Below, in pieces: positions 35,085 through 40,418 of a stretch of DNA of 62,434 nt. The notes under the pieces are model-generated. The model was not told the origin of the DNA, ran no database searches, and saw nothing but the letters and a program-made list of their open reading frames with translations. Source of the stretch: a virus; IMG/VR virus record IMGVR_UViG_3300042429_000522, positions 1 to 62,434 of that record. One strand, given 5' to 3'. The position numbers and the translations under genes were made by a program. Numbering within the stretch: the stretch's first letter is position 1; every line of letters starts with the position of its first letter.

Positions 35085-36257
35085 TTAGACGGCACCCCAG
35101 CCCTTGCGTTGTCCGATCACCTGCCAAGCATAAGCCATTGCGTCTACAACGTCATCATGCCTGCCAACTGGGAACGACAATAGTTCATCCTGCCAGTATG
35201 GTGGCAACCCTTCAGCGTGTACGACTTGCCCTTGCTCGTACCGGGCTTCCAATGGTCCAAAGCGGGTCACTTTGTCACGGTCTGGTCTGATGCCCCGGAT
35301 AGGCAGTTTAGTCCGCCTCATGAGCTCTTGAACGACAGCGGCTTGGTACTGAACCTGCTCGATGCCAATCATCGTAGGTTTCCACTTTTCAGCCATCATC
35401 TCGATGAACCTTAGCACGGATGCAAAGTCGGCACGGGTACGGTTGACATCCAATACATAAATAGTCCCGTCATCACCACGTGATAAAGCAACCACGGCTG
35501 TGTAGTCTGCTTCAGCCTTGGTACTGATAGCAAGGTCAACACCAAGGTAGACGGGCAAGCCTTCAGGTGCATCACCAAAACGCAACCACTCTCGCTTGAT
35601 ACGGGCACCAGCTGCATCAACGAACTCTGCTAAGTACTCTTGTCGAAAGGCTATGCTAGGCAATGATTCACCAGCCTTGGCTACCTCAGCTGCATCTATC
35701 CAAGGGTTCGCCGTGGTTGGCATCTGCCAGCTCATCCAGTCTGGATCTAAAGCAGCCATGCTGTGCAGGGTCTTGAAGTAGTTGCTACCCTTGGGAGTGC
35801 TTAGGAAGAAAGCATCTCCCCGGTAGTCGGTAAGCGTTGGGCGGATAGCCTCCGTCCACGCTTGTTCCAAGTGCCTTGCCATGGCGGCTTCATCAATGAT
35901 AACCCGCTTGTACTTTCGTCCACGGGCTACCGTAGACGGGTCATCAAGCGTCCAATAATCGATTGCCGCCCCGGTTATCAGTTCAATCCTTGGGGCTGGT
36001 GTTTGTACAGCCCTTCGGATGACAGGCGCATATATCCTTTTATGGTCGTTATATGCCTCTTCTAGAAGCCGGTAGGTAGGTGCGAACCAAGCACACGGCA
36101 AGCCGTGCTGGAGTACCGGATCCGATAGCAGATTCCCACCAAGCGTTGTTTTACCGAAACGTCTGCCACAGGCAAGAACATTGAACCGCTTGGCTTCTCG
36201 CAAGATTACCTGCTGGGCTTCGTGTGGCTTAGGAAGCACCAGCCTGATATCAGCCAT
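35085..36257 (-). CDS. terL: Terminase large subunit, unit B
   Basis: This 390-residue protein has the same length and motifs as the A copy: Walker A CGRRFGKTT, VIIDE, STPKGS, GVDLAIS, GIEQ and HDDVVDAMAYA. Most protein changes from A are conservative although many codons differ. Start MADIRL overlaps the small terminase stop by 8 nt, since no methyltransferase gene intervenes here. Confidence 0.96.
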   Translation of the reverse strand: MADIRLVLPKPHEAQQVILREAKRFNVLACGRRFGKTTLGGNLLSDPVLQHGLPCAWFAPTYRLLEEAYNDHKRIYAPVIRRAVQTPAPRIELITGAAIDYWTLDDPSTVARGRKYKRVIIDEAAMARHLEQAWTEAIRPTLTDYRGDAFFLSTPKGSNYFKTLHSMAALDPDWMSWQMPTTANPWIDAAEVAKAGESLPSIAFRQEYLAEFVDAAGARIKREWLRFGDAPEGLPVYLGVDLAISTKAEADYTAVVALSRGDDGTIYVLDVNRTRADFASVLRFIEMMAEKWKPTMIGIEQVQYQAAVVQELMRRTKLPIRGIRPDRDKVTRFGPLEARYEQGQVVHAEGLPPYWQDELLSFPVGRHDDVVDAMAYAWQVIGQRKGWGAV

Positions 36258-36606
36258 TGGGTTTATCTGCGTACTCTACGATCACCTTCACCGGTGAGCC
36301 GTCTGCCCCGGTTTGCTCTACCCTACTTGACCACTCAACCTTATGCTTACGTTCTAGCCACCATGCTGCAGCTTGCCACGTGGTGTCAGCTGCACGTTGG
36401 ATGATAGCAACGTTCCGCACCTCAGCATCACACTCTGCCTTTTTTATTGCATCCGCGAAATCCGCGTTGGTTTTGAGCCAAGCAGCCAGCGTGTCTTCTG
36501 AGATACCGGCGTAACCACATGATGCCCGGCGGGTATTACCCGACCGTAAGGCTTGTGTGATGCGTTGTACAACCTCTTCATTGTACTTAGTTGGTCTACC
36601 TGCCAT
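36250..36606 (-). CDS. terS: Terminase small subunit-like HTH protein, unit B
   Basis: In this 118-residue protein, MAGRPTKYNEEVVQRITQAL leads into the HTH (TRRASCGYAGISEDTLAAWL), and the SSRVEQTGADGSPVKV tail is identical to A. It is placed 1 nt after folE, so it is co-transcribed with the deazaguanine cassette. Confidence 0.8.
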   Translation of the reverse strand: MAGRPTKYNEEVVQRITQALRSGNTRRASCGYAGISEDTLAAWLKTNADFADAIKKAECDAEVRNVAIIQRAADTTWQAAAWWLERKHKVEWSSRVEQTGADGSPVKVIVEYADKPNG

Positions 36607-36607
36607 A

Positions 36608-37162
36608 TCAAGTCACCAAAGCCATAAACTCAGCACGTGCAGCCGTGTTGTATCTAAATGCTCCAATGGTTGCCGACGTAACCATCTCGGCGTTTGGTTG
36701 CTTTACACCACGGCAACCCATACACAAGTGCTTGGCTTTTATCACGACACCAACGCCCACCGGGTTTAGATGCTCCATCATTGCATTAGCAATCTCTTGT
36801 GTTAGGCGTTCCTGTACCTGCAACCGTTTAGCAAAACACTCAACCAACCTTGGTATCTTAGACAAGCCAACAACCCGGTCTGTTGGAATGTAAGCAACCG
36901 ATGCCTCACCAATAAACGGTAGCAGATGATGTTCGCAGGTGCTGTAAAAAGTAATGCCGCGAACAATAATCATTTCGTCGCATGGCACATCAAATGTACG
37001 GCTTAGAATCTTAGCCGGGTCTTCGTGATATCCAGCGGTGATTTCCGTCCAAGCTCGTAATACTCGGTCAGGTGTATCTATCAAACCTTCACGGGTATCG
37101 TCTTCCCCAATGTGTGCAAGTAATGTTTTTACTGCATCAATGGCATCGTCTTTAGTAACCAT
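36608..37162 (-). CDS. folE: GTP cyclohydrolase I, unit B
   Basis: FolE makes 7,8-dihydroneopterin triphosphate from GTP, the first step toward 7-deazaguanines. The full 184 residues are present: zinc ligands C76 and H79 in STCEHHLLPF and C147 in HLCMGCRGVKQ, plus the substrate loop KIPRLVECFAKRLQVQERLT. It is last of the six-gene cassette; start ATG at 37162 overlaps the QueE stop. A phage copy relieves dependence on host folate flux. No A homologue. Confidence 0.96.
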   Translation of the reverse strand: MVTKDDAIDAVKTLLAHIGEDDTREGLIDTPDRVLRAWTEITAGYHEDPAKILSRTFDVPCDEMIIVRGITFYSTCEHHLLPFIGEASVAYIPTDRVVGLSKIPRLVECFAKRLQVQERLTQEIANAMMEHLNPVGVGVVIKAKHLCMGCRGVKQPNAEMVTSATIGAFRYNTAARAEFMALVT

Positions 37163-37853
37163 TTTTTATGTTCCCTCCCAGTGGTATCAAACGCTTGTCG
37201 GCATGTTGGTCGTATAGATCTGCCTTGTACATTTTATGTATTTGGTATCCTGCTCTGAATGGTTCACCGTGTGTTTTTACATAATTTACTATCAGCTGCT
37301 TTACAGTATCGTCGTTATGTTTAGACCACTCTGGATGTAACCAAACCGGGGCATCAGGTTGCCGTGCTTGTATCACTGCTAACCCATCAATTATTGATGC
37401 TTCATTCTCAACAATGATTTTGAACTCGTTAGCCTTGGCTACATTTTCAATCAATGGTGCTGTAGCGAAAGGTTTAGGGGACAATGTAATCCAAGCGTCC
37501 ACGTTGCCTATTGATCGATGACCCGCTGTTTCAATATGCACTGGTCGTTTTGTATGGTTGATTATCTCGGTAATGAGTGGTTCCAAGTTATACATTGCCG
37601 GTTCCCCACCGGTAATCACCGTGTATGCAAATCTAGCATCTGTTGGTATCAAGGCAACTAAATCTGCAGCTGTATACCGTGTTATGTAATCCGGTTTCCA
37701 ATCCTTATGCCACGTACCAGCAGAGTCACAGAAGTGGCACTTTTGGTCACAACCGTACAACCTGAGAAAGTAGGCTGCTTGCCCAGCATAAACACCTTCA
37801 CCTTGGAACGATAAGAACCGCTCTTGTAGTGCGTATATTGGATTGTTACTCAT
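37152..37853 (-). CDS. queE: 7-carboxy-7-deazaguanine synthase, unit B
   Basis: This 233-residue radical SAM enzyme converts carboxytetrahydropterin to CDG. The cluster-binding motif is C35-x3-C39-x2-C42 (GCDQKCHFCDSAGTW), preceded by FLSFQGEGVYAGQAAYFLRL, with GGEP around residue 82. The start chosen is MSNNPIYALQ at 37853, 8 nt inside queD; a longer in-frame start 36 bases upstream lacks support. Confidence 0.95.
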   Translation of the reverse strand: MSNNPIYALQERFLSFQGEGVYAGQAAYFLRLYGCDQKCHFCDSAGTWHKDWKPDYITRYTAADLVALIPTDARFAYTVITGGEPAMYNLEPLITEIINHTKRPVHIETAGHRSIGNVDAWITLSPKPFATAPLIENVAKANEFKIIVENEASIIDGLAVIQARQPDAPVWLHPEWSKHNDDTVKQLIVNYVKTHGEPFRAGYQIHKMYKADLYDQHADKRLIPLGGNIKNGY

Positions 37854-38220
37854 GGCAATACGCTGCGTAGGTCTTCCAGTCTCCTGCACGCTCAGTTACA
37901 CGCACCTCACGCAATACAACCCCATCCGGTAACTTTAGCAGGTTATTAGCCACGACCCATAAGTGTTGGGCAAGTAACTCGGATGACGGGTTGAAATCAA
38001 GAACCACATTTAGGTCTTGGTGATCTAGTGATTGAATGGTTGGTTTGATTGCGTTGCGTATTTCATCAAACGATATCAACCATCCACGATGGTCTAAGGT
38101 GGTTCCTTGTATAAAAAACTGCGCCTCCCAGTTATGTCCATGATTTTTTGAGCATGGTCCATCATCTTTTGGATTATGGTGTGCAGCACAAAACTCAAAC
38201 GATTTTGTTATTGTAAACAT
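37846..38220 (-). CDS. queD: 6-carboxytetrahydropterin synthase, unit B
   Basis: This 124-residue QueD/PTPS-family enzyme produces 6-carboxy-tetrahydropterin. It shows zinc ligands H14, H27 and H29, the nucleophile C23 in PCSKNHGHNWE, the DH pair 66-67 in SLDHQDLN, and E110 in RVTERAGDW. It is well preceded by AAGGGGA. It lies between the methyltransferase and queE. A variant of QueD with another activity cannot be excluded by eye. Confidence 0.92.
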   Translation of the reverse strand: MFTITKSFEFCAAHHNPKDDGPCSKNHGHNWEAQFFIQGTTLDHRGWLISFDEIRNAIKPTIQSLDHQDLNVVLDFNPSSELLAQHLWVVANNLLKLPDGVVLREVRVTERAGDWKTYAAYCHE

Positions 38221-38232
38221 CGCGTCCCCTTG

Positions 38233-38814
38233 TTACTTTATCCACCAAGCGCATAGCGTTTCATCATGTATGGATTTACCCATGACCCCAAACCGTTCAA
38301 CATAGAAATCAGGTTGTACTGTGTAATCAATTTTATATAACCTCTTTATGTTGTTTTTGTTGGTGTCGTATAAAAGCTCTAACACTTGATCTAGCGTCCG
38401 AAAGTTTTTGTGTTCTTCGTTTGTGGTTTGTGCCTGTTTTGCCTTGATGTCTTTATTCGTAAACTGAATAAGCAAGATAGGAACGGTCACACGGTTTATC
38501 AATGCTTTGATTTCATCGTCGGTTAGATAATGTAATACGTGTCGCATCAAAACCATTGATGCATCAGGTGGTACCTGATAGGTGTTTATGTTGCTACAAA
38601 TATCCGGCTCCATATCCGGATTGTTATCAACCGTAACAACTTCATTGTTATCAAACCAACGTTTCGATAATCCGTTACCACCACCCAAATCATAAACAAT
38701 GCCTGATGGTATTTCATTACTGATGCAATCAGTGGCTATTGATAAAGAGTAAAAGTAAAGCAACTTTGATGTGGCGCTTTTACCTTTACCAAACGTGTTC
38801 GCGTGATCCATCAT
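38233..38814 (-). CDS. Class I SAM methyltransferase in the deazaguanine cassette, unit B
   Basis: In this 193-residue protein, motif I is IVYDLGGGNGLS (39-50), an acidic end of strand 2 (VVTVDNNPD) follows, and SMVLMRHVLHYLTDDEI is motif IV/post-IV. There is no DPPY or ProCys motif, so it is not a normal DNA base methyltransferase; small-molecule methylation or modification of an already inserted 7-deazaguanine is more likely. It overlaps dpdA by 4 nt (ATGA). I recall that some virus 7-deazaguanine clusters include an added methyltransferase, but whether this is the same family is not known. Base composition is clearly more AT-rich than flanking genes. Confidence 0.75.
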   Translation of the reverse strand: MMDHANTFGKGKSATSKLLYFYSLSIATDCISNEIPSGIVYDLGGGNGLSKRWFDNNEVVTVDNNPDMEPDICSNINTYQVPPDASMVLMRHVLHYLTDDEIKALINRVTVPILLIQFTNKDIKAKQAQTTNEEHKNFRTLDQVLELLYDTNKNNIKRLYKIDYTVQPDFYVERFGVMGKSIHDETLCAWWIK

Positions 38815-39659
38815 CTGCTTGTTACCTTTAGAGCTTGCTCACGGTCGAATGCTTCCAAGACAATATGTAAAGCCTTAGTGGTTGTAAGAGACAAAACGAT
38901 TTTAGTATTGAATAACCGTTGACAATCCGCAGCAAACCTAAGTGTTGACTGAGCACCAAGGAATCTAGACATGCTCTGTCCACCATGCCAAGATTCTTCC
39001 GAACGAGCATCCTTCAGTGTGTACCCGTAACTTTTTATAGCATCGGCTTGCTCATCGGTGATTTTGGTTTTTAGATCTGTCCGTGCGATTACTACAGTTT
39101 TGCCTTTACCAACATACAAAGGTAAGTGACCCATACGGGCACCATACTCCCATGTTGACGCATCCGCACTGTACGGTTTGTACTTAGCAATCAATGATTT
39201 ATTCAAGCTGCCCAACAGGTGTACCGGTTTTTTATTTGTTTCCAATACGTGTTTAGCCCAACCCAAACCACCACCGCCAGCCCCTTTGTTTGTGTTGATA
39301 CCACCAACAGCAACCAAGTCCGAGTGTTCATACATGCTGGCAATCTCGTATGGTTTAGCCCCCGGTGTAGCAATAGGTATCGTGTCGATACCTTGGCTGC
39401 AGAGATACCGATAGTTCTCTTCTGTTTTGATTGGGTCACCAATGACATCAAGTGTGAAGATACGGTCTGGCTTGATAGGAAATGTTTTTACAAAGTTAGC
39501 AAATTCGTCTACAGGTGTAGCTGCTTTGTTTGCTTTGTATGTCGTAAAAGCACCTGAGTCCATCCAGAACTTATGACCCTTTGATGCAGCATCAGCGCAG
39601 GCTTGTATCAAGCCCACATCCAAGTATGGGTATGCAACAAGAAAGTTGAAATGATCCAC
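38811..39659 (-). CDS. dpdA: DpdA-like 7-deazaguanine DNA transglycosylase, unit B
   Basis: This 282-residue TGT-fold protein of the phage DpdA kind should exchange guanine in DNA for a 7-deazaguanine base. Seen: FWMDSGAFTTYKANKAATPV with D34, the DVIGDPIKTEENY segment, GGINTNKGAGGGGLGWAKHV, and SADASTWEYGARMGHLP with D166 as candidate nucleophile. The tRNA-type zinc site of bacterial TGT is absent. GTG start overlapping the ParB-like stop (TAGTG). Confidence 0.88.
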   Translation of the reverse strand: MDHFNFLVAYPYLDVGLIQACADAASKGHKFWMDSGAFTTYKANKAATPVDEFANFVKTFPIKPDRIFTLDVIGDPIKTEENYRYLCSQGIDTIPIATPGAKPYEIASMYEHSDLVAVGGINTNKGAGGGGLGWAKHVLETNKKPVHLLGSLNKSLIAKYKPYSADASTWEYGARMGHLPLYVGKGKTVVIARTDLKTKITDEQADAIKSYGYTLKDARSEESWHGGQSMSRFLGAQSTLRFAADCQRLFNTKIVLSLTTTKALHIVLEAFDREQALKVTSR

Positions 39660-40237
39660 TAATTTTCTATCCTTGCGTCATCAATAATTGATATTGCCTG
39701 AGCAACGACATTGGTTAGTTGATCAGCATCAGATTGTGAACATGAGACGGTTAGCGTAAACCGTAATGGCCCATCATTGGGTTCCAACGTGTTTGCTTTA
39801 TCCGCAATATTGTTATCCCAAACACCGGCAATCTCGTTTATAAGTTCGTTTAGATCATCGGTTGAGTATCCGGTACCATCCAAGCCAATAGGTGTATTAG
39901 CAAGTTCAGCAAGGATGTCGGTAATCTTGGTCGTGTCATCTTGCCCGATACGGGTAGTCCTGTTATCAACCACAAGGATACGCAGCTCTTCTTCCGGTGT
40001 AACGTCAACCCATTGAACAGGTACGGTTTCCCAGCCTAGCGCCTTGGCAGCCATCACCCGATGATTTCCCGCTAGGATGTGCTTAGTACTCGTGTTGACA
40101 ACCACAGAGCCGTACCAACCATTGACAGCTAGACTGGTTTTGATGGCTTCTATATCACCGTGGTTGGCGTTGCGTGGGTGGTGCTTGAGCAGATCTATCG
40201 CAACCTGCTCAATACCTTTGTTTATTACTCTACTCAT
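39659..40237 (-). CDS. ParB/sulfiredoxin-fold protein, unit B
   Basis: This 192-residue protein starts with a ParB-like N-terminal domain: VAIDLLKHHPRNANHGDIEA, then ILAGNHRVMAAKALGWETVP (55-74) and a VVDNRTTRIGQDD segment. ParB-fold nucleases or NTP-binding proteins are frequent beside phage DNA-modification genes. It is first of the cassette, so probably a partner of DpdA rather than a plasmid partition protein; no ParA is present. Confidence 0.82.
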   Translation of the reverse strand: MSRVINKGIEQVAIDLLKHHPRNANHGDIEAIKTSLAVNGWYGSVVVNTSTKHILAGNHRVMAAKALGWETVPVQWVDVTPEEELRILVVDNRTTRIGQDDTTKITDILAELANTPIGLDGTGYSTDDLNELINEIAGVWDNNIADKANTLEPNDGPLRFTLTVSCSQSDADQLTNVVAQAISIIDDARIEN

Positions 40238-40418
40238 CTAGATTCTTCCGTATCTCGGCACTGGTAGCCCAAAGCATAGCCGCCCGCATCTTTTCTTTGC
40301 TGATGCCCTGAGCCTTAGCCTTTTTTTTCACATCGTTATACAACCAACGGTTATACAGCTCGTTGTACACGGCTAGGCACCCAGCCCCCACCAAAGCACC
40401 AATGGCAAAAGGTATCAT
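40230..40418 (-). CDS. Small single-pass membrane protein, unit B
   Basis: This 62-residue protein differs from the A copy (6243-6431) at only a few residues, with the same N-terminal transmembrane helix and TSAEIRKNLDE end. It overlaps the Tad2-like gene upstream by ATGA, and the ParB-like gene starts 8 nt inside its 3' end. In A the same gene adjoins the small terminase, so the deazaguanine cassette sits exactly between these two conserved genes. Confidence 0.75.
   Translation of the reverse strand: MIPFAIGALVGAGCLAVYNELYNRWLYNDVKKKAKAQGISKEKMRAAMLWATSAEIRKNLDE

Follow-up and report, generated by a model that had tools for sequence, protein, structure and literature searches.

A methyltransferase takes the place of QueC in a predicted phage 7-deazaguanine DNA-modification cassette

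A six-gene 7-deazaguanine cassette directly before terS

The viral record IMGVR_UViG_3300042429_000522 of IMG/VR (62,434 bases, analysed over its whole length and referred to here as the window) was found to contain a 7-deazaguanine cassette of six minus-strand genes, which extends from a small membrane gene to the gene of the small terminase subunit (terS) and lies directly before the latter. In order, the genes encode a ParB-like protein, a DpdA-like DNA-guanine transglycosylase, a class I S-adenosylmethionine (SAM) methyltransferase (MT), QueD, QueE, and FolE (Table 1). A first-pass annotation, made from the sequence alone, had described a cassette of this content without QueC, and both points were borne out. 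Indeed, the genes are real and intact at these positions, with their motifs preserved, and a search for QueC (PF06508) gave no match in the whole 62,434-base record, the same search being positive in 12 of 14 control genomes. Profile searches of each protein, which had been proposed as a check, matched FolE, QueD (as 6-pyruvoyltetrahydropterin synthase, PTPS, 5e-28), QueE, DpdA, and the ParB-like protein at high significance, whereas MT gave only weak Pfam matches. The finding is more interesting than that annotation stated, in that a conserved methyltransferase restricted to phages occupies the position of QueC.

The enzymes flanking this slot retain the residues expected of active proteins. 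In DpdA, the two aspartates that had been named as decisive, D34 and D166, were found to be invariant, together with D71 and H147, in an alignment of 37 relatives. The AlphaFold2 model of DpdA (predicted local distance difference test, pLDDT, 92.5) had as its top PDB match the archaeosine tRNA-guanine transglycosylase (TGT) 1j2b (E=3.6e-4, probability 1.00), at a modest TM-score of 0.44. With a predicted TGT fold and its catalytic aspartates kept, DpdA is plausible as an active enzyme. In nearly all related cassettes dpdA is preceded by a ParB-like gene, whose product is a probable DNA-binding or targeting partner. QueE, for which the ATG at 37853 is a more probable start than the GTG at 37889, carries the CxxxCxxC motif (C47/C51/C54), the cluster cysteines being invariant in the alignment, and FolE keeps its zinc-ligand motif with C76, H79, and C147 invariant.

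Table 1. Cassette genes and boundary genes of the window, and the small QueD-like protein of related loci (positions preceded by an L number refer to that locus).
Feature	Position	Strand	Evidence or remark
ParB-like protein, 192 aa, first cassette gene	39659..40237	-	PHROG 723, E=8e-39; PF02195, 6e-5
DpdA2-like DNA-guanine transglycosylase, 282 aa	38811..39659	-	PHROG 887 (queuine tRNA-ribosyltransferase), 5e-17; alignments; AlphaFold2 model
Class I SAM methyltransferase (MT), 193 aa, QueC slot; proposed 7-carboxy-7-deazaguanine (carboxyl) methyltransferase	38233..38814	-	QueC/MT mutual exclusion; family alignment; AlphaFold2; Foldseek
QueD, 6-carboxytetrahydropterin synthase, 124 aa	37846..38220	-	PF01242, 5.5e-28; TIGR03367, 4e-22
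QueE, 7-carboxy-7-deazaguanine synthase	37152..37889	-	PHROG 2076 (QueE-like radical SAM), 6e-30; TIGR04322, 8e-23
FolE, GTP cyclohydrolase I, 184 aa	36608..37162	-	PF01227, 7e-74
Small membrane protein, upstream boundary gene	40230..40418	-	In phage A directly before terS
Small terminase subunit (terS), boundary gene directly downstream of FolE	36250..36606	-	PHROG 4102, E=1.4e-28
Small QueD-like protein	L113:6111-6488; L146:1640-2005; L153:7331-7681; L138:6129-6479; nine more loci		

Exchange of QueC and MT at the same slot in related phages

Scanning 2.9 million viral contigs with the DpdA alignment yielded 80 loci, among which the commonest layout is ParB - DpdA - QueC - (QueD, QueE, FolE, either order) - terminase. 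The closest DpdA relatives, L008 (55% identical) and L009 (47% identical), belong to the same phage group as the window and show the order ParB-DpdA-QueC-QueD-QueE-FolE-TerS-TerL, which places the window MT exactly at the QueC position. The DpdA tree joins the window with L008 (support 97) and both of them with L009 (support 99). L001, L002, and L003, which come from other metagenomes and nearly duplicate the window cassette, have MT and lack QueC. Mapping of the MT label on the DpdA tree requires seven changes, at least four of which are forced by well-supported branches, and therefore the swap has happened repeatedly. A series of closely related cassettes illustrates the exchange: L025 carries QueC, L093-L095 carry MT, and L011/L012 carry neither, with DNA 72-82% identical on both sides of the slot, and the exchange is cleanly bounded by DpdA and FolE. 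Across many phage lineages, MT occupies the slot of QueC and stands in for it.

The comparison with relatives also bears on how the cassette came to its present place. The record consists of two related phages in a head-to-tail arrangement, with a truncated phage A on the left, a complete phage B (~13.5-47 kb) that carries the cassette, and, at the right end, a piece C that may be the remainder of phage A; the arrangement may reflect prophages in tandem, a concatemer or a join made in assembly. In phage A, terS begins right after the stop codon of the same small membrane gene, whereas 3.6 kb separate the two genes in phage B. The first-pass annotation had taken this difference as an insertion between both genes. 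The A/B comparison itself stands, in contrast to the direction: the large terminase subunit (TerL) is 88% identical between A and B and 75-77% identical to that of L008/L009, which places the latter outside the A+B pair, and since L008 and L009 also have a cassette beside terS, loss from A and insertion into B are equally likely. Of ten genes outside the cassette that were compared with profiles, none was an integrase; Erf-like, Gam-like, DnaB-like, and sigma-factor-like genes are present.

Mutual exclusion of QueC and MT

The census of cassettes was assembled from DpdA-, MT- and FolE-seeded scans, so that its proportions are not natural frequencies, and truncation at contig ends could have removed a gene from cassettes on short contigs. 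Of the 143 cassettes that combine DpdA, QueD, QueE, and FolE, 92 have only QueC, 26 only MT, and 13 only a small QueD-like protein; one has both QueC and MT, 11 have none of the three, and no other combination occurs. Collapsing at 80% DpdA identity left 117 cassettes (81 with QueC only, 17 with MT only, 10 with the QueD-like protein only, one with QueC and MT, and eight with none), in which mutual exclusion with QueC was significant for both MT (Fisher p=5.7e-10) and the QueD-like protein (p=2e-6). A separate collapse by FolE gave p=2e-10 for MT versus QueC, and no locus with QueC and MT together was obtained in the FolE-seeded scan, which is blind to both genes.

The annotation had left a choice between host QueC and insertion of 7-carboxy-7-deazaguanine (CDG) or a derivative of it. 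The data favor the CDG-derivative branch and support the expectation of an unusual base; what had been overlooked is MT as a stand-in for QueC. Should the host supply the enzyme, its QueC would turn phage-boosted CDG into preQ0, DpdA would insert preQ0, and MT would act elsewhere or on the inserted preQ0 or 7-amido-7-deazaguanine (ADG). Many hosts of DpdA phages do encode the queuosine pathway (PMC6884629), but this explanation does not account for the retention of FolE, QueD, and QueE with loss of QueC alone, nor for the same MT family in the vacated slot of several lineages, and it is regarded as quite unlikely.

The small QueD-like protein (115-125 aa; HRHxF...DRxxEF...SCE...ED.E.GA) is confined to cassettes devoid of QueC and MT, and is also present in the phage isolates Acidovorax ACP17 and the Pseudomonas PA5oct group. 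It may correspond to the published CDG decarboxylase DpdL. None was detected in the window with a model built for that protein. Two cassettes of this kind include a putative vitamin-uptake transporter gene, at L138:6461-6967 (PF02592, just below the cut-off) and, by resemblance, at L140:4784-5287; PF02592 is the family that includes YhhQ, a transporter of preQ0. Other genes seen in or beside QueC-less cassettes encode phosphoribosyltransferase-like proteins (L011:2693-3076 and L029:3793-4227). Gene-product-88-like proteins lie beside deazaguanine cassettes at L144:5443-6156 (confirmed by PF17338) and, by resemblance, at L008:6253-6963, L009:4199-4951, and L146:6589-7242. A UbiE-like methyltransferase located between FolE and QueD in a QueC-less cassette (L059:4234-4983) was considered as a second QueC-replacing family and rejected, only the protein itself being found again.

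The MT family and its predicted product

Without QueC, which converts CDG to preQ0, the pathway would reach CDG via QueE, and MT would then methylate CDG, most likely on the carboxylate, which would yield the methyl ester 7-methoxycarbonyl-7-deazaguanine. DpdA, probably aided by the ParB-like protein, would exchange guanine in phage DNA for the methylated base; methylation could come before or after insertion, with free CDG or inserted dCDG as substrate. Such a base would keep N7 masked and protect the DNA against restriction enzymes. Methylation of the carboxylate is the simplest reading because the pathway without QueC ends at CDG, which is distinguished by this group. We infer in this way that MT acts on CDG or a CDG-derived base, and likewise its methylation site and biological role. 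Production and insertion of a methylated 7-deazaguanine by the cassette, with MT acting on CDG in place of QueC, is considered moderately likely, and the swap predicts a methylated base that probably has not been described. The broader proposal, by which a widespread phage MT family that replaces QueC makes 7-methoxycarbonyl-7-deazaguanine as a new natural base and constitutes a third CDG-consuming branch beside QueC (preQ0) and the QueD-like protein, is put forward tentatively.

Scanning viral loci with the MT alignment alone retrieved 29 loci, all with queuosine-pathway genes nearby; DpdA was detected in 28 of them and QueC was absent from 28. MT is located beside DpdA in nearly all loci, and about half of the loci show a 4-nt overlap between its start and the DpdA stop. 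In L100, L101, L104, and L106, whose biosynthesis genes are located elsewhere, MT still lies close to dpdA. No further genes common to MT cassettes across all lineages were found. Sequences diverge widely within the family (between lineages, 31-40% identity to the window member) but share the strong patterns FGxW, DxGGxNGL, RxVLHYLTD, QF, FRT, FYxxRL, and HxE. As judged from sequence searches, it is phage-restricted: bacterial genomes gave one weak 61-residue match, in a metagenome-assembled genome (L109) without queuosine genes in the stretch examined. A tblastn search of 50,697 phage records with four members as queries gave no match, and one full-length unnamed relative (A0A6J5MXR3, TM 0.86) was present in a viral protein model library.

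Motif I of MT reads DLGGGNG, and D42, G44, G45, G48, and D63 are invariant in 21 members. R91, H95, Q117, R139, Y171, and R174 are likewise invariant. The AlphaFold2 model (pLDDT 91.9) is a compact class I fold, for which a Foldseek search of the PDB listed BioC first (1.8e-9), followed by CmoA, a plant isoflavone O-methyltransferase, BelI, and CysG, all small-molecule methyltransferases, with no DNA methyltransferase among the top 50 structural neighbors. BioC is a carboxyl O-methyltransferase that methylates a free carboxyl group (malonyl-acyl carrier protein). A PDB sequence search with the 21-member profile gave only weak matches, to plant O-methyltransferases (E=0.02).

These results bear on two further explanations. 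According to the first, DpdA inserts plain CDG (dCDG) and MT is an independent orphan DNA-modifying or host-takeover enzyme. The absence of both QueC and MT from L011/L012, in an otherwise closely related cassette, is in line with it, and dCDG is said to occur in phage DNA; nevertheless, the presence of queuosine genes with MT in 29 of 29 viral loci, where MT nearly always occupies the QueC position or adjoins DpdA, and the lack of DNA methyltransferases among those 50 structural matches make this very unlikely. According to the second, MT methylates CDG or dCDG away from the carboxylate, at O6, at N2 or, once CO2 is lost, at C7, which would give another methylated 7-deazaguanine. Class I folds carry out O-, N- and C-methylation, and HuiC of the huimycin cluster has been proposed to methylate the 6-oxygen of a 7-deazaguanine (PMC7439116). 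However, HuiC works together with QueC rather than substituting for it, a free carboxylate is the very feature left by the absence of QueC, and the best structural neighbor of MT is a carboxyl methyltransferase, which leaves methylation at another site unlikely and the carboxylate as the preferred position.

Several observations weigh against methylation of CDG by MT in place of QueC. The likeness of MT to carboxyl methyltransferases is at the superfamily level (~12% identity, TM ~0.65). One MT locus has no detectable DpdA (L090), and another (L089:3775-4407) also has a genuine QueC, located after FolE and not in the usual slot. The eight non-redundant cassettes without QueC, MT or QueD-like protein imply that QueC can be missing without replacement by MT. 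The DpdA loop GGINTNKGAGGGG at residues 119-131, whose equivalent in TGT sits at the 7-substituent, tracks MT only in part: in the main DpdA clade it reads GGLVG with QueC and GG[I/L]N with MT, but L009 has GGIN with QueC, L011 and L030, which have neither gene, also have GGIN, distant MT-type DpdAs differ, and a phylogeny-aware independent-pairs test was without power. The GG[I/L]N loop is thus a suggestive sequence lead as a specificity marker, and not more.

If methylation of CDG by MT is correct, a base with a masked carboxyl group would join the known anti-restriction chemistry of phage DNA. Here, a DNA modification and an enzyme activity are predicted from a repeated gene-for-gene swap, and a branch point of the queuosine-type pathway becomes accessible to direct test, with CDG as the only substrate, a single small soluble enzyme and a mass shift of +14 relative to CDG. 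The data suggest that phages diversify their modification through what they place in one exchangeable slot (QueC, MT or QueD-like protein), DpdA being the insertion engine that they share.

Comparison with known systems

No mention of an MT replacing QueC was found in the open-licence literature, a set without many papers; this replacement appears to be the new element, whereas QueC-less cassettes and, reportedly, dCDG are already known. Phages are said to contain dCDG, dDG, and mdPreQ1 in their DNA, produced with the enzymes DpdL, DpdM, and DpdN, of which DpdL reportedly uses CDG and DpdM is reportedly a methyltransferase of non-classical fold acting on dPreQ1. The synthesis of dPreQ1 passes through QueC. 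By description, these enzymes share with the window the tailoring of 7-deazaguanines in phages; the window MT, which is class I by model and Foldseek and replaces QueC, appears to differ from DpdM.

The formation of a carboxylate methyl ester on a nucleobase has a precedent in CmoM, which acts on tRNA cmo5U (PMC12783734). CmoM and BioC, the top structural match, resemble the window MT in the proposed reaction, but they have other substrates, and MT, at ~12% identity to BioC, shows no sequence-level membership.

Among phages, the QueC-less Mycobacterium phage Bipper, for which CDG was already suggested as the base in 2019 (Hutinet 2019, PMC6884629), has DpdA, FolE, QueD, and QueE like the window; the MT family of the window was detected by tblastn with four members in no phage record of the collection searched. 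The Microbacterium phages Megan and Nicole72 share the order ParB - DpdA - ... - QueD - QueE - FolE - TerL, but have QueC and two DpdA copies. Finally, the preQ0-type phages, such as Escherichia phage CAjan and Mycobacterium phage Rosebush (PMC6884629), resemble the window in combining DpdA with FolE, QueD, and QueE, in insertion by a transglycosylase and in the lack of an amidotransferase, whereas in the window QueC is absent and MT stands in its place.

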